A stretch of 64,000 nucleotides of DNA, taken from Alloactinosynnema sp. L-07. GTDB lineage: Bacteria > Actinomycetota > Actinomycetes > Mycobacteriales > Pseudonocardiaceae. The notes beneath the pieces are model-generated. The model did no database searches. It was not told where the DNA came from and worked only from the letters and a program-made list of their open reading frames with translations. Location of the stretch: positions 6,324,001 through 6,388,000 of the forward strand of contig NZ_LN850107.1 in the NCBI RefSeq assembly GCF_900070365.1, read 5' to 3'. The translations under genes and the position numbers were made by a program. Below are positions 39,666 through 51,410 of this stretch, piece by piece (position 1 is the stretch's first letter; each line of letters opens with the position of its first letter).

Positions 39666-40763
39666 GTGGTGAATGACGTCAAGCGCGTCGCCGTCGTGGG
39701 CGGTGGCGTGATCGGGCTGTCCGTGGCGTGGGCGCTGGCTGAGGCCGGGTTCCGCGTCGTCTTGGTCGATCCCGACCCAGGTCACGGTGCTTCGTGGGTG
39801 GCGGGCGGAATGCTCGCCCCGGTCACCGAGTCGTGGCCGGGTGAGGACGATGTGCTCGCGCTGGGGGCCGCGTCGCTGGATCTGTGGCCCGCGTTTGCGG
39901 AGCGGTTGCGGCAGCGAGGTGGCGATCCTGGGCTAAGCACGCACGGAACTCTGGCGCTGGCGCTTGACTCCGCCGATGTCGGCACGCTGAATGTCCTCGC
40001 CGACTATCTGCGCGGCCAGGGGCGTGCCGTCGAGCGGCTGACCGGGCGCGAACTGCGGGCGCTGGAGCCCGCGCTGGGGCCTCGGGTCCGAAGTGGACTG
40101 AATGTGCCGGGGGATCTGGCCGTGGACAACCGAAGCCTGCTGATCGCGCTCCGGTCCGCCTGCGAATCGGCGGGGGTGGAGTTCTTCCCGGCGGCGGCGA
40201 CCGGAGTCCGGCCGGGCGCGGTCGACCTCGGCAGCTCCACTGTGGACTGTGAGGTGGCGGTCATCGCGGCCGGGGCGTGGAGCCGGACGCTGCACCCCGC
40301 GCTGGAGTCGGTGACCAGGCCGGTCAAGGGGGAGATCCTGCGGCTGCGGGCCCGGCCGGGCGCGCTGCCGGTCCCGGTGCGGACGATCCGTGCGCACGTC
40401 GAGTCGCGGCCGGTCTACCTGGTGCCCAGGGCCGACGGCGAACTCGTTCTCGGCGCGACCCAGTACGAGGCGGGCTACGACACCGAGGTCACCGTCGGCG
40501 GCGTGCGGGACCTGCTGGCCGACGCCGAGCAGGTGCTGCCGGGCATCGCCGAGTACGCGCTGACCGAGTGCGCCGCCGGGCTGCGGGCGGGCAGCCGGGA
40601 CAACCTGCCGCTGGTCGGCTGGCTCGAACCCGGGGTGCTCGCCGCCACCGGCCACCACCGCAACGGGCTCCTGCTCGCGCCCGGCACCGCGGCCTCGGTC
40701 GTGGCCATGCTGCGCGACGGCGCCGCCCCAGAACCGGCCGCGGACCCCGCCCGGTTCCGCTAG
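39666..40763 (+). CDS. thiO: Glycine oxidase ThiO
   Basis: 365 residues. FAD-binding Rossmann motif [20 protein letters not shown] lies near the N-terminus, then [17 protein letters not shown], and C-terminal [20 protein letters not shown] and [14 protein letters not shown], as in D-amino-acid oxidase-type ThiO. It oxidises glycine to iminoglycine for thiazole synthesis with ThiS-COSH and ThiG. GTG 39666 is 8 nt from GGGAG inside the riboswitch; GTG 39669 is an alternative. Its TAG stop lies within the CTAG end of a structured repeat. Confidence 0.95.
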
Positions 40764-40924
40764 TGTCCTGCGCCGGAATCCGACATCTATCTCGGCGGCC
40801 CAGCTTCCCGCTGGCCGCACGGACGAAAGGCCCACGGACACCCAGTACGAGGACCTTCCGTCCGCACACCCAGCGGAAACCTGGACCACCGATATAGACG
40901 CCGGATTCCGGCGCAGAACACTAG
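40760..40924. repeat. CTAG-bounded structured repeat, copy A
   Basis: 165 bp between CTAG (40760-40763) and CTAG (40921-40924). The outer arms of 23 bp match in 22 positions. A hairpin CCAGC/GCTGG follows at about 40800-40815, then a stem GGACGAAAGG/CCTTCCGTCC enclosing CCCAGTACGA. Copies B (46382) and C (51244) share the core, not the arm sequence. The left CTAG contains the thiO stop. It separates thiO from thiS. Confidence 0.85.
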
Positions 40925-40938
40925 TTGGAAAGGACGCG

Positions 40939-41139
40939 ATGAGGATCGAGGTCAACGGCGAGCCCCGCGAGGTCGCCGACGGAACGACGGTCGCCGACGT
41001 GCTCGCCGCGCTCGGCCTGCCCGCCAACGGGATCGCGGTCGCCGTCGACGGCGAGGTCGTGCCCCGTGCCGACCACGCGCGGACCACGGTGACCGACGGG
41101 GCCGCCGTCGAGATCCTGACCGCTGTGCAGGGAGGCTGA
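40939..41139 (+). CDS. thiS: Sulfur carrier protein ThiS
   Basis: 66 residues with the ubiquitin-like fold: [50 protein letters not shown]. The C-terminal Gly-Gly becomes the thiocarboxylate that donates sulfur to the thiazole ring. GAAAGGA precedes the ATG. The stop is 1 nt from the thiG start, so the two are co-translated. Insertion of the 165-bp repeat upstream separates it from thiO by about 175 nt, though read-through from the riboswitch remains possible. Confidence 0.95.
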
Positions 41140-41140
41140 C

Positions 41141-48921: not shown

Positions 48922-48952
48922 GGCGGAGGGCCGGAGACCCCGGCCCTCCGCC
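48922..48952. terminator. Bidirectional hairpin between SSI and AAA+ genes
   Basis: GGCGGAGGGCCGG (48922-48934) pairs with CCGGCCCTCCGCC (48940-48952), a perfect 13-bp stem with a 5-nt loop. It sits between the convergent ends of the SSI gene and the AAA+ gene, serving both. Confidence 0.8.
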
Positions 48953-48956
48953 CGGT

Positions 48957-51227
48957 TCAGGATCCTCGTGTCTCGGCGTAGGCCGCCAACGCGGCGACCT
49001 GCGCCGGGTCGAGTGAGGGACCGACCGCCGCCCGGGCCGCGGCCAGGTGCGCCGCGGTCACCTCGGCCGCGTCCATGCTCTCGCGCATGGCGGTGAGGGC
49101 CGCTTCGCGGATCAGGGCAGTGCAGTCGGCCGCGGAGTAGCCGTCGAGTTCCTTGGCGTACTCGTCCAGGTCCACGTCCGGGGCCAGCGGGGTGTTGCGG
49201 GCGGTGGCCTTGAGGATGGCGGCGCGGGCATCGGCGTCCGGTGGTGGGACGTAGATCAGCCGCTCCAGCCTGCCGGGGCGCAGCAGGGCCGGGTCGACCA
49301 GTTCCGGGCGGTTCGTCGCGCCGATCACCACCACGTCGCGCAGTGGTTCCACGCCGTCCAACTCGGTGAGCAGGGCGGCGACGACGCGGTCGGAGACGCC
49401 GGAGTCCGACGACTGGCCGCGGCGGGGTGCGAGCGCGTCGATCTCGTCGAGGAAGATCAAGGCGGGGGCTGCCTCGGCGGCGCGGCGGAACAGGTCGCGC
49501 ACGGCGCGTTCGGACTCGCCGACCCACTTGTCCATCAGTTCGGCGCCCTTGACCGACAGCACGTTGAGCTGGCCGGTGCCCGCCATCGCGCGGACCAGGA
49601 ACGTCTTGCCGCCGCCGGGCGGGCCGTACAGCAGCACGCCGCGCGGCGGGGCGACGCCGAGGCGGGCGAAGGAGTCCGGGTAGCGCAGCGGCCACAGGAC
49701 CGCCTCGGTGAGCGCCTGCTTGGTCTCGGCCATGTCGCCGACATCATCGAGGCTGATGCCGCCGGTCCGCAGGGTGTCCGAAGTCGACATCGACGTCGGC
49801 CGCACCGTGTCCAAGGCGCCGAACAGGTCCTCGGACTCGATGCGCGGGTCGCCATCCTGGTGCCGCAGCGCCGCACGGATGGCCGACTCACGGCGCAGCG
49901 CGATGAGGTCGGCGGCGACGAAGCCGGGAGTGCGCTCCGCCACCGCACCGAAGTCCACATCGGACACCACGGGTACGTCGCGGAACAGCACCCGCAGCAA
50001 CTCGGTGCGGGTCTTGCCGTCGGGCAGGGGCAGGCTGAGTTCCCGGTCGATCAACTCGACACCGCGCACCCGCGGGTCGACCGCCTCCGGGTGCGCGGTG
50101 GTCGCGACCAGGGCGACGCGGGGAATCTTGACCGCCGCACGCAGCGAGTCGAGCACCACGGTCGCCACCGGCGGCGGCGCGGTCGCGGGGAGCAGTGCGT
50201 CGAGGTCGGCGATCAGCAGGACCACCGGGGTCCCCGCGTCGGCATGCGCACGAACCGCCGCGATGGCCTCCTCGACCCTGGCCGCCGTCGTGTTGGCTTC
50301 CAGGACCGCGACCGTGGGGCCGACGAGTTCGACCACGGCGGCCTTCTGCGTGTGGGCCACCGCACGGACCAGCGTGGACTTGCCGACACCTTCCGGCCCG
50401 GTCACCAACACCCCGAGCCGGGGCGCGGCACCGAGCTTGGCCAGCAGCTCCGGCCGGGTGAACGCCAGCTCGAACCATTCGCCCAGCGTGCGCGCGACCT
50501 CACCAGCACCGACGAGATCCGCGATCGGAACCGGCGCCTGCTCGGGCTCCGCCACGCCCACCGACTCCACGCCCGCCCGCGTCGACTGGGCCGTGACCTG
50601 GACGCCCTGACCCGATGGGGCGGCCTGGGCGGCCTGCCCGGTCGCGCGGACGGGCCTATCACCAGTGCGCGGCCCGTCGCGCCAACCGACCACAGTGGAC
50701 GGGTGGACGGTGGCCGCGCCTGCGGGATCGGTGGCGGTCACCGTGAGAAGTTCGTTGGTCCATGTCGTCCCGATCGCGCGAGACAACTTGCCGCGCACAG
50801 CCGAAACGTCGGATCCGGGCGGCGGGGAGAGATCCTGCGGCAACAGCGAGACCGCGTCGCCCACGGTCAGGACCTTGCCGACCAGGGCCAGCCGGACGGT
50901 CTCGGGGGTAAGGGAGGTGGTGGCCAGCCGGGACCCCGCGACGGTCACCGAGCGGGCGGGCGCGACCTCCACAGGGGACACCACAACCTCAGAGCCCTCG
51001 GTGACACCGATATTGGACATGGTGACGTCATCAAGAAGGATCACCCCGGTCGGCCCACCGGCCTCAGCCGCGAGCGCCGCACTGACCCGCGCCCCAGTGA
51101 GCTGGACAGCGTCCCACTGCCGCAGCCCAAGAGCATCGAGCACCTCCCGATGCAACCGAACAACCCCCCGACGAGTGTCCAGCGCGGAGGGCGTCAATCG
51201 GGCAGTCAACGTGATCTGTGATCCCAC
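48957..51227 (-). CDS. CDC48/VAT-like AAA+ ATPase
   Basis: 756 residues. The N-terminal double-psi barrel and CDC48 domain are visible (VRLHREVLDALGLRQWDAVQ, GVILLDDVTMSNIGV). Two AAA+ modules follow. D1 has Walker A GPEGVGKSTLV and a Walker B of VLLIADLDALL, in which the catalytic Glu is Asp, so it may hydrolyse poorly. D2 has GPPGGGKTFLVRAMAG, LIFLDEIDALAPRRG and GATNRPELVDPALLRPGR, all canonical. It unfolds or remodels protein complexes with ATP, possibly delivering substrates to the proteasome. GTG 51227. A CTAG repeat lies 17 nt upstream. Confidence 0.92.
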   Translation of the reverse strand: MGSQITLTARLTPSALDTRRGVVRLHREVLDALGLRQWDAVQLTGARVSAALAAEAGGPTGVILLDDVTMSNIGVTEGSEVVVSPVEVAPARSVTVAGSRLATTSLTPETVRLALVGKVLTVGDAVSLLPQDLSPPPGSDVSAVRGKLSRAIGTTWTNELLTVTATDPAGAATVHPSTVVGWRDGPRTGDRPVRATGQAAQAAPSGQGVQVTAQSTRAGVESVGVAEPEQAPVPIADLVGAGEVARTLGEWFELAFTRPELLAKLGAAPRLGVLVTGPEGVGKSTLVRAVAHTQKAAVVELVGPTVAVLEANTTAARVEEAIAAVRAHADAGTPVVLLIADLDALLPATAPPPVATVVLDSLRAAVKIPRVALVATTAHPEAVDPRVRGVELIDRELSLPLPDGKTRTELLRVLFRDVPVVSDVDFGAVAERTPGFVAADLIALRRESAIRAALRHQDGDPRIESEDLFGALDTVRPTSMSTSDTLRTGGISLDDVGDMAETKQALTEAVLWPLRYPDSFARLGVAPPRGVLLYGPPGGGKTFLVRAMAGTGQLNVLSVKGAELMDKWVGESERAVRDLFRRAAEAAPALIFLDEIDALAPRRGQSSDSGVSDRVVAALLTELDGVEPLRDVVVIGATNRPELVDPALLRPGRLERLIYVPPPDADARAAILKATARNTPLAPDVDLDEYAKELDGYSAADCTALIREAALTAMRESMDAAEVTAAHLAAARAAVGPSLDPAQVAALAAYAETRGS

Positions 51228-51243
51228 GCTGACACCTTATGGG

Positions 51244-51410
51244 CTAGTGGTGTGTCCATGAGCGTTGCCGGGCTCTCGACGGCCCAGCTTCCCGCTGGCC
51301 GCACCGCCGAAACGCCCAAGTACACCCAGTACGAGCGGCATTCCGGCGGCACGCCCACCGGAAACCTGGATCCGCCGATAGCCCGACAACGCTCATGGAC
51401 ACACCACTAG
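51244..51410. repeat. CTAG-bounded structured repeat, copy C
   Basis: 167 bp from CTAG (51244-51247) to CTAG (51407-51410). Outer arms of 30 bp differ at one position. The core CCCAGCTTCCCGCTGGCCGC and ACACCCAGTACGA match copy A, while the stem CCGCCGAA/TTCCGGCGG differs from that of A yet still pairs. The right CTAG includes the stop of the pssA-like gene. Confidence 0.87.

Follow-up and report, generated by a model that had tools for sequence, protein, structure and literature searches.

Short repeats at the stops of thiO, def and pssA in Alloactinosynnema sp. L-07 as probable copies of a two-part actinobacterial mobile element

Three elements at the ends of thiO, def and pssA

Three short repeats, referred to here as elements A, B and C, lie in a 64,000-nucleotide stretch of contig NZ_LN850107.1 of Alloactinosynnema sp. 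L-07 (the window), and the family of hairpin-forming sequences to which they belong is the subject of this work. Element A (40760-40924, 165 bp, CTAG at both ends) is found between thiO and thiS, element B (46382-46549, 168 bp, TTAG...CTAG, hence a TTAG target) adjoins def, and element C (51244-51410, 167 bp, CTAG at both ends) adjoins pssA; each represents a subfamily of the same letter. A preliminary description of this DNA had given these positions, lengths and ends, and direct reading confirmed them. It had also proposed that one CTAG of each element holds the TAG stop of a neighbouring gene, and the frames and their domains bear this out: the thiO stop (40761..40763, plus strand) is within the left CTAG of A, the def stop (46546..46548, minus strand) within the right CTAG of B, and the pssA stop (51407..51409, minus strand) within the right CTAG of C, the three frames carrying a DAO, a Pep_deformylase and a CDP-OH_P_transf domain, respectively. 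The rarity of CTAG was equally borne out: base composition predicts about 184 sites for the window, which has 44.

Each element, read directly, is a single long imperfect palindrome. The left terminal repeat of A, CTAGTGTCCTGCGCCGGAATCCGAC (40760..40784, plus strand), has an inverted copy at the right end and resembles IS630-type ends from the Pseudonocardiaceae. The core of A, element positions 31-135 (40790..40894, minus strand), is common to subfamilies with differing ends, and the direct-repeat family D1 of the window consists of parts of the A, B and C cores. The 10-base core CCCAGTACGA named in the preliminary description did poorly as a marker inside the window, where it had 4 matches at one mismatch, a number reached by 29 of 100 shuffles; the whole elements did match genome-wide, the best own-genome matches other than self having E values of 2e-80 for B, 3e-76 for A and 1e-75 for C. 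There are at least 18 copies of B in the genome at 89-100% identity (B itself counted, among the best 40 of 77 candidates scored) and at least 15 of C at 91-100% (C itself counted).

The thiO-thiS junction was without an element, as read by eye, in all 13 congeners in which it was located, out of 15 examined; in the other two the thiS start was not located with the motif used. A thiamine pyrophosphate riboswitch is present at 39565-39673, upstream of thiO, which apparently places element A within a thiamine operon under riboswitch control.

A numerous family with a shared core and changing ends

Nucleotide searches, together with a structure model built from 49 own-genome copies, located 73 places of 146-171 bp in the L-07 genome, in addition to short remnants. 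All but one of these places (3617285) were fetched, and the counts given below for 72 own copies omit the remnants L054 and L056 and two short places and include L083 and L076 in shortened form. The elements are mostly 162-171 bp long, with a few relatives of 178-194 bp, and there are single-base differences in length between copies. One of the long relatives (L114, 1501-1694, genome G033) has 194 bp instead of about 167, the additional sequence being next to the loop.

The copies fall into several subfamilies, with about 88-99% identity within the main ones. Between subfamilies the outer arms diverge and the part corresponding to positions 31-135 of A stays similar; many own-genome matches to A span only about that part of the query, at 76-94% identity. 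The element looks like a two-part structure, made of variable transposase-type ends and a conserved, strand-specific hairpin core. One copy (L072, 1475-1641) is a chimera whose left arm is of one subfamily and right arm of another, and its hairpin is largely lost (fold -84.1, compared to -154.9 and -145.3 for its two parent types), which suggests recombination within the shared core. The remnants L054 and L056 are core-less. Hairpins of about 40 bp with element-type arms only and no core were also noticed by eye at about 2500-2540 in three Streptomyces plasmid loci (L353, L354 and L356).

The family extends well beyond the L-07 genome. The following genome-search counts are lower bounds, as 47 candidates per genome were scored in the first search round and 7 in the second. 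The first structure model, at E<=1e-3, had matches in 15 of 16 genomes of the genus (L-07 included), in 9 of 21 from other genera of the family and in 2 of 24 from other families of the order; the second, at E<=1e-5 and under strict filters, had matches in 18 of 396 genomes drawn across the phylum. Three of the phylum loci, used as queries, retrieved plasmid relatives in Streptomyces, Embleya, Kitasatospora and Streptantibioticus, many of them core-only. The exact core pattern is far more restricted: a scan of species genomes, with own-genome records excluded, met just three stretches, in the two Actinokineospora species A. xionganensis and A. iranica.

To see how far this kinship can be followed by sequence, 130 cores from the genus were combined into a profile. 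At E<=1e-4, it matched 9 of the 11 loci from other genera of the order and 5 of the 28 drawn from across the phylum, but none of three Streptomyces plasmid loci (best 1.3e-4); on shuffled loci it matched none of 42 at E<=10. Among the five supported phylum loci is L314, which led to a plasmid element in pADI95-16a of 88.5% identity. In 18 of 25 phylum loci, some of which are copies from the same genome, the distance of a GCAAGG motif from the better-folding strand's 5' end is 54-58 bases; three of the 28 loci, with short flanks, were excluded from this evaluation. Since homology by sequence reaches few of the phylum-wide loci, the claims about the most distant members are weaker: their link to the family is suggested by the structure model, the CTAG-type ends, the length and the GCAAGG motif.

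Carriage of the elements by phages was considered and dropped, as copy B, the only query, had no match in phage records and the core pattern none in viral contigs. No known RNA family was recognised with Rfam: release 15 had no match at gathering score in A, B or C, and a permissive search of 10 loci gave a single overlap with an element, a chance-level match to mir-278 (E 0.34).

A hairpin that pairs better on one strand

The plus-strand RNA folds of A, B and C are already far more stable than those of shuffled sequences (z = -13.1, -12.3 and -12.8; none of 200 shuffles equalled them), and the minus strand folds better still in all three. The predicted energies are -146.5 kcal/mol for the minus strand of A against -99.3 for the plus strand, and -145.3 against -107.8 for C. 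For B, the minus strand reaches -162.8 kcal/mol with 63 Watson-Crick and 14 G-U pairs, compared to -114.4 for the plus strand, with 64 Watson-Crick pairs and no G-U pair. All 183 copies compared, which come from 26 genomes, showed the same asymmetry, with a mean gain of 39 kcal/mol for the strand opposite to the plus strand, and most mismatches of the plus strand become G-U pairs when its complement is folded. The better-folding strand was in every case the one carrying CGTACTGG-type loops. Orientation was set by this loop motif, or by the match to a plus-strand model for 20 own copies, and not by folding; the 183 copies are related by descent and form 35 clusters, so they do not count as 183 independent trials. 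In all 25 evaluable phylum loci the better strand was, by eye, also the strand matched by the better-strand model, a model that itself favours such pairing.

The way in which copies depart from perfect pairing points in the same direction. Across 11 clusters with at least three members, smaller clusters being excluded and four exact duplicates removed, single-sided departures on the plus strand comprised 102 C.A against 46 G.T mismatches (p=5e-6), and within the core 54 against 16 (p=6e-6). One could explain the wobble pairs by mutation instead, through deamination of C and A on one exposed strand with no selection for pairing, and the excess of G>A and T>C changes at paired plus-strand sites (59+37 against 25+21 events) does fit deamination of the other strand. 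A one-way bias would not, however, account for the sites left unpaired on the plus strand, the G-U sites of the other strand among them, where the changes run the opposite way, 67 against 6, or for the drop of wobble in the outer 15 bp; we regard this explanation as very improbable. Judged from the aligned copies, the spectra are those of interconversion between G-U and Watson-Crick pairs, as would be expected if the pairing of one strand were selected, and not those of a one-way mutation bias.

The position of the wobble pairs separates the two parts of the element. In 32 of the 35 subfamily representatives (L072, L076 and L114 being excluded), the share of G-U among the pairs is 3-5% over the outer 15 bp and rises to 9-26% at offsets 15-79. 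A mismatch recurs at offset 31, which is unpaired in 26 of the 35 representatives on the 5' arm and in 24 on the 3' arm; a bulge at offset 39 is one-sided, being seen in 18 of the 35 on the 5' arm and in one on the 3' arm. An apical GUAC-loop-GUAC was noted by eye in many copies. The outer part may thus be read as a site for a transposase acting on DNA, and the inner part as a hairpin that would matter at the level of a single strand. The idea that the arms covary solely through hairpin correction at the DNA level was abandoned after the strand asymmetry was found. G-U pairs may also spare the DNA from being a perfect, unstable palindrome.

Whether the single strand is RNA or DNA is a separate question. 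A folded DNA strand, for example at a replication fork or as an entering strand, could be the relevant form: DNA folding gives the same preference of strand for B, the junction in core-less remnants such as L054 is at a short direct repeat (by eye), the trace expected of slippage over a hairpin in DNA, and hairpin transposition by Y1-type enzymes provides a precedent. On the other side, mismatch repair should clear G-T mispairs from such a strand, yet about 10 per hairpin remain, and the Y1_Tnp domain was found in just two of 16 genomes of the genus, L-07 itself and G014; the 14 genomes without a match include G012, with at least 47 element matches, and G015, with 39. We therefore favour RNA over single-stranded DNA as the probable form of the hairpin and consider the DNA version unlikely. 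Mobilisation of a single strand by Y1/RAYT enzymes was rejected on the same distribution of Y1 transposases.

Target sites, ends and the mobilising enzyme

Evidence of mobility comes from sites with and without an element, most cleanly in Streptomyces. Plasmid pADI95-16a carries a 165-bp element, from CTAG to CTAG, at the stop of an MBL-fold gene. In six of six related Streptomyces plasmids, namely the five of S. goshikiensis and one of Streptomyces sp. Mg1 that hold most of the region, the site is empty and reads CACAGCGC-CTAG-CGCGG, with CTAG present once. The congener G014 was compared in the same way, with 14 own copies set against 400 kb, 9 of which had a flank match and 8 of which could be aligned. 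The intact element is absent at all eight aligned sites, six of them too diverged for a footprint to be read; the L127 site is empty and clean, CTAG being there once, and the L132 site (G014:C1, about 1931508-1931552) holds a short remnant at the same TA that resembles the right end of another subfamily, the B type. The single CTAG that the preliminary description anticipated at empty sites was thus seen in the six plasmids and at one locus of a congener.

Copies without CTAG ends, which the preliminary description had named as evidence against its reading, do exist: both ends are CTAG in only 34 of the 72 own copies. But 50 of the 72 keep xTAG...CTAx, the outer bases varying one at a time, as duplication of a TA at YTAR predicts; an end is changed or lost in the remaining 22. 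The variants include TTAG...CTAG and CTAG...CTAA, in six of the 72 copies each. A CTAG target by itself cannot distinguish duplication of TA from duplication of CTAG; the outer-base variants fit, and favour, duplication of TA alone at YTAR. These end counts lean towards CTAG, since TAG was given a bonus in placing some of the own boundaries, as it was for all 111 copies taken from other genomes.

The IS630-like transposase suggested as a partner was found in CTAG-bounded form, both in the L-07 genome and in its bacterial family. There are three DDE_3 (IS630-type) transposases in the genome; at the own-genome locus L085, an open frame of 372 aa is enclosed by CTAGTGTCGCGTGAT... ends, the element being bounded by CTAG with TGTCGCGTGAT... 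ends. Relatives of one such element occur in 50 of 150 genomes of the family, and 11 of 20 fetched loci have paired ends 1132-1141 bp apart and frames of 365-376 aa. One IS630 end from the family reads CTAGTGTCCTGCGCCGGAAATTCGCC, against CTAGTGTCCTGCGCCGGAAATCCGAC in the element copy L002, the window copy being one A shorter. The end of A agrees with an IS630 end in 17 of the 22 bases after TAG (p=0.0005, the minimum possible with 2000 shuffles). When subfamilies were compared with 26 collected insertion sequence (IS) ends, those of A, F, one subfamily of G040, L111 and L114 matched (best end p=0.0005), L131, L244 and L300 matched more weakly (p about 0.01), and C was borderline (0.03 and 0.08). 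In genome G010, the TA within the palindrome GAGCCACTAGTGGCTC appears, by eye, to be the insertion site of an IS630-type element (L179, 1361-2621).

On plasmids, searches with terminal repeats of the CTAGGGCGTGTC type matched 12 and 48 records. Of the five that were read, one has a full element, three have short hairpins without a core and one has a single end; none has an annotated transposase, though two of the five carry no gene annotation at all.

An IS630-type mechanism is, we believe, well supported as a type of mechanism, which for B and C does not extend to a particular enzyme. The earlier interpretation of the elements as non-autonomous and mobilised by such an enzyme is in this way largely supported: CTAG-bounded IS630 elements exist and A shares their ends, but none of the collected IS630 ends matched B and C is borderline. 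The conserved, G-U-paired hairpin of the opposite strand was not part of that interpretation. The simplest version of that interpretation would be an ordinary IS630-type miniature inverted-repeat transposable element (MITE), in which only the ends matter, the core is passive filler and the palindrome is a by-product of origin. Ends, target and empty sites are all of the IS630 type, and RUP, Correia/NEMIS and ERIC are known examples of MITEs that are long palindromes (PMC2229807). What this version leaves unexplained is a core that is better conserved than the ends across subfamilies, and the strand-specific G-U pairing in every copy together with the reversed spectrum at unpaired sites, which speak for a constraint on the core. 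We disfavour it, and would give it a low probability.

Stop codons and neighbouring genes

Of the 72 own copies, 36 terminate a neighbouring frame by a rule that takes open frames with at least 90 codons and a GC content at third codon positions (GC3) no lower than 0.75 whose stop coincides with the boundary TAG. The same rule applied to the CTAG sites of the window that are outside elements and frames called 13 of 31 as stops, eight more sites being within frames; the rule is crude, and false calls are to be expected in both counts. A slightly different boundary rule placed 38 of the 72 own copies and 65 of the 111 other copies at stops. The placement of copies at TAG stops, as the preliminary description had it, is therefore called for half of the copies and is not clearly above the background of other non-coding CTAG sites, and it is about what CTAG targeting predicts. 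A special affinity for stop codons is unsupported once this background is counted.

The proximity to stops raises the question of whether the hairpins are selected by the host as parts of 3' untranslated regions, serving as terminators in both directions or as RNase III sites, with mobility as an incidental property. The 36 copies at stops and the very stable folding of both strands of A, B and C would be in keeping with such a role. The stop overlap nevertheless does not clearly exceed that of ordinary CTAG sites, as just described, and the copies show no preference in orientation to neighbouring genes (40 genes read into the plus strand, 39 into the other) though one strand has the better hairpin. 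Nor was an intact orthologous copy found at the eight aligned sites of G014 or at the thiO-thiS junction of the 13 congeners. A host function of this kind seems to us quite improbable, and regulation through read-through from the neighbours was dropped for want of any orientation bias.

Comparison with known repeats and other repeats of the window

The REP and BIME sequences mobilised by RAYT, which are Y1 transposases, are palindromic intergenic repeats. The elements described here differ from them in their long inverted repeats and TA duplication and in the lack of a Y1 match in 14 of the 16 genus genomes. Going by the excerpted account in PMC2229807, the nearest known kinds are, by analogy, RUP with IS630-Spn1, Correia/NEMIS and ERIC. 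RUP of Streptococcus pneumoniae, at 107 bp, resembles the present family in being short, with IS630-like terminal repeats and TA in the target; as described there, for one species, it differs from a family that spans several genera, has a full-length hairpin with strand-specific G-U pairs and carries subfamily-specific ends (PMC2229807). The Correia/NEMIS elements of Neisseria are MITEs of about 107 and 155 bp with TA ends, whose transcribed stem-loops are proposed as RNase III targets; they are set apart by their host, and that part of the source does not speak of ends that change around a conserved core (PMC2229807). ERIC/IRU of enterobacteria, 127 bp long and with TA ends, has an effect on mRNA stability that depends on orientation, unlike the elements here, which by this description are distinguished by their lack of orientation bias to neighbours (PMC2229807). 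No description of the present family was found in the part of the literature matches that was listed.

The window holds two further repeats. A second hairpin repeat of about 186 bp is present in opposite orientations at 30491-30676 and 63428-63613, with perfect arms of 31-32 bp, GGTGGTTCGCCTTGATTTGGGG, 77 nt apart, and no CTAG ends by eye. A perfect direct repeat of 37 bp occurs at 37612-37648 and 38689-38725, 1077 bp apart.

Interpretation and significance

We consider it likely that A, B and C are copies of an actinobacterial non-autonomous mobile element that combines IS630-type ends, inserted at YTAR, with a separately conserved hairpin on one strand. The outer 15-20 bp or so of each end would be terminal inverted repeats like those to which IS630/Tc1-mariner-type transposases bind, and such an enzyme would insert the element at the TA of YTAR, mostly CTAG, and duplicate the TA. 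That many copies sit on stop codons would follow from the rarity of CTAG in this GC-rich DNA and from its use in TAG stops. The inner 60 bp or so of each arm are, as the comparisons show, a separate module, a long hairpin kept paired on one strand, with G-U pairs and the recurrent mismatch and bulge. This hairpin is probably selected as a transcript and, as there is no orientation bias to neighbours, may serve the spread of the element itself and not the adjoining genes. The terminal repeats differ between subfamilies while the core stays similar; the lineage would thus have repeatedly acquired or evolved different transposase ends.

Several observations weigh against parts of this interpretation. 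The ends of subfamilies B, E, G, H, I, J and K match none of the 26 collected IS630 ends, and DDE_3 had no match in eight of the 16 genus genomes, including G015 with its 39 element matches and G006 with 20. The excess of C.A departures is weak in the outer arms (48 against 30, p=0.054), two clusters of G040 deviate (C.A against G.T of 6 to 8 and 0 to 3), and kinship among copies deprives the counted events of full independence. The same strand signal would come from single-stranded DNA folded with G-T pairs, the DNA fold of B being -81.5 on one strand against -60.8 on the other. The copies are without orientation bias to their neighbours, and L072, with its hairpin largely lost, persists as an inserted copy, as do the core-less L054 and L056.

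A bolder proposal, which we put forward as a tentative possibility, takes the core to be a non-coding RNA module, widespread in Actinomycetota, whose folded transcript is needed for the element to move or persist, with interchangeable ends, those of different IS630-type transposases having been taken up across lineages. If that were true, the element would be an RNA-dependent non-autonomous transposon, its transcript binding, for example, the transposase or a host factor.

Bacterial MITEs are commonly viewed as passive leftovers of insertion sequences. The family described here is MITE-like, yet across several genera the part conserved is the middle, as a hairpin of one particular strand, and not the ends. 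The function of MITE hairpins thereby becomes directly testable, as base changes can be made that alter the pairing on one strand only. The family is also numerous in actinomycetes, which makes it relevant to genome annotation and to the finding of active transposases.

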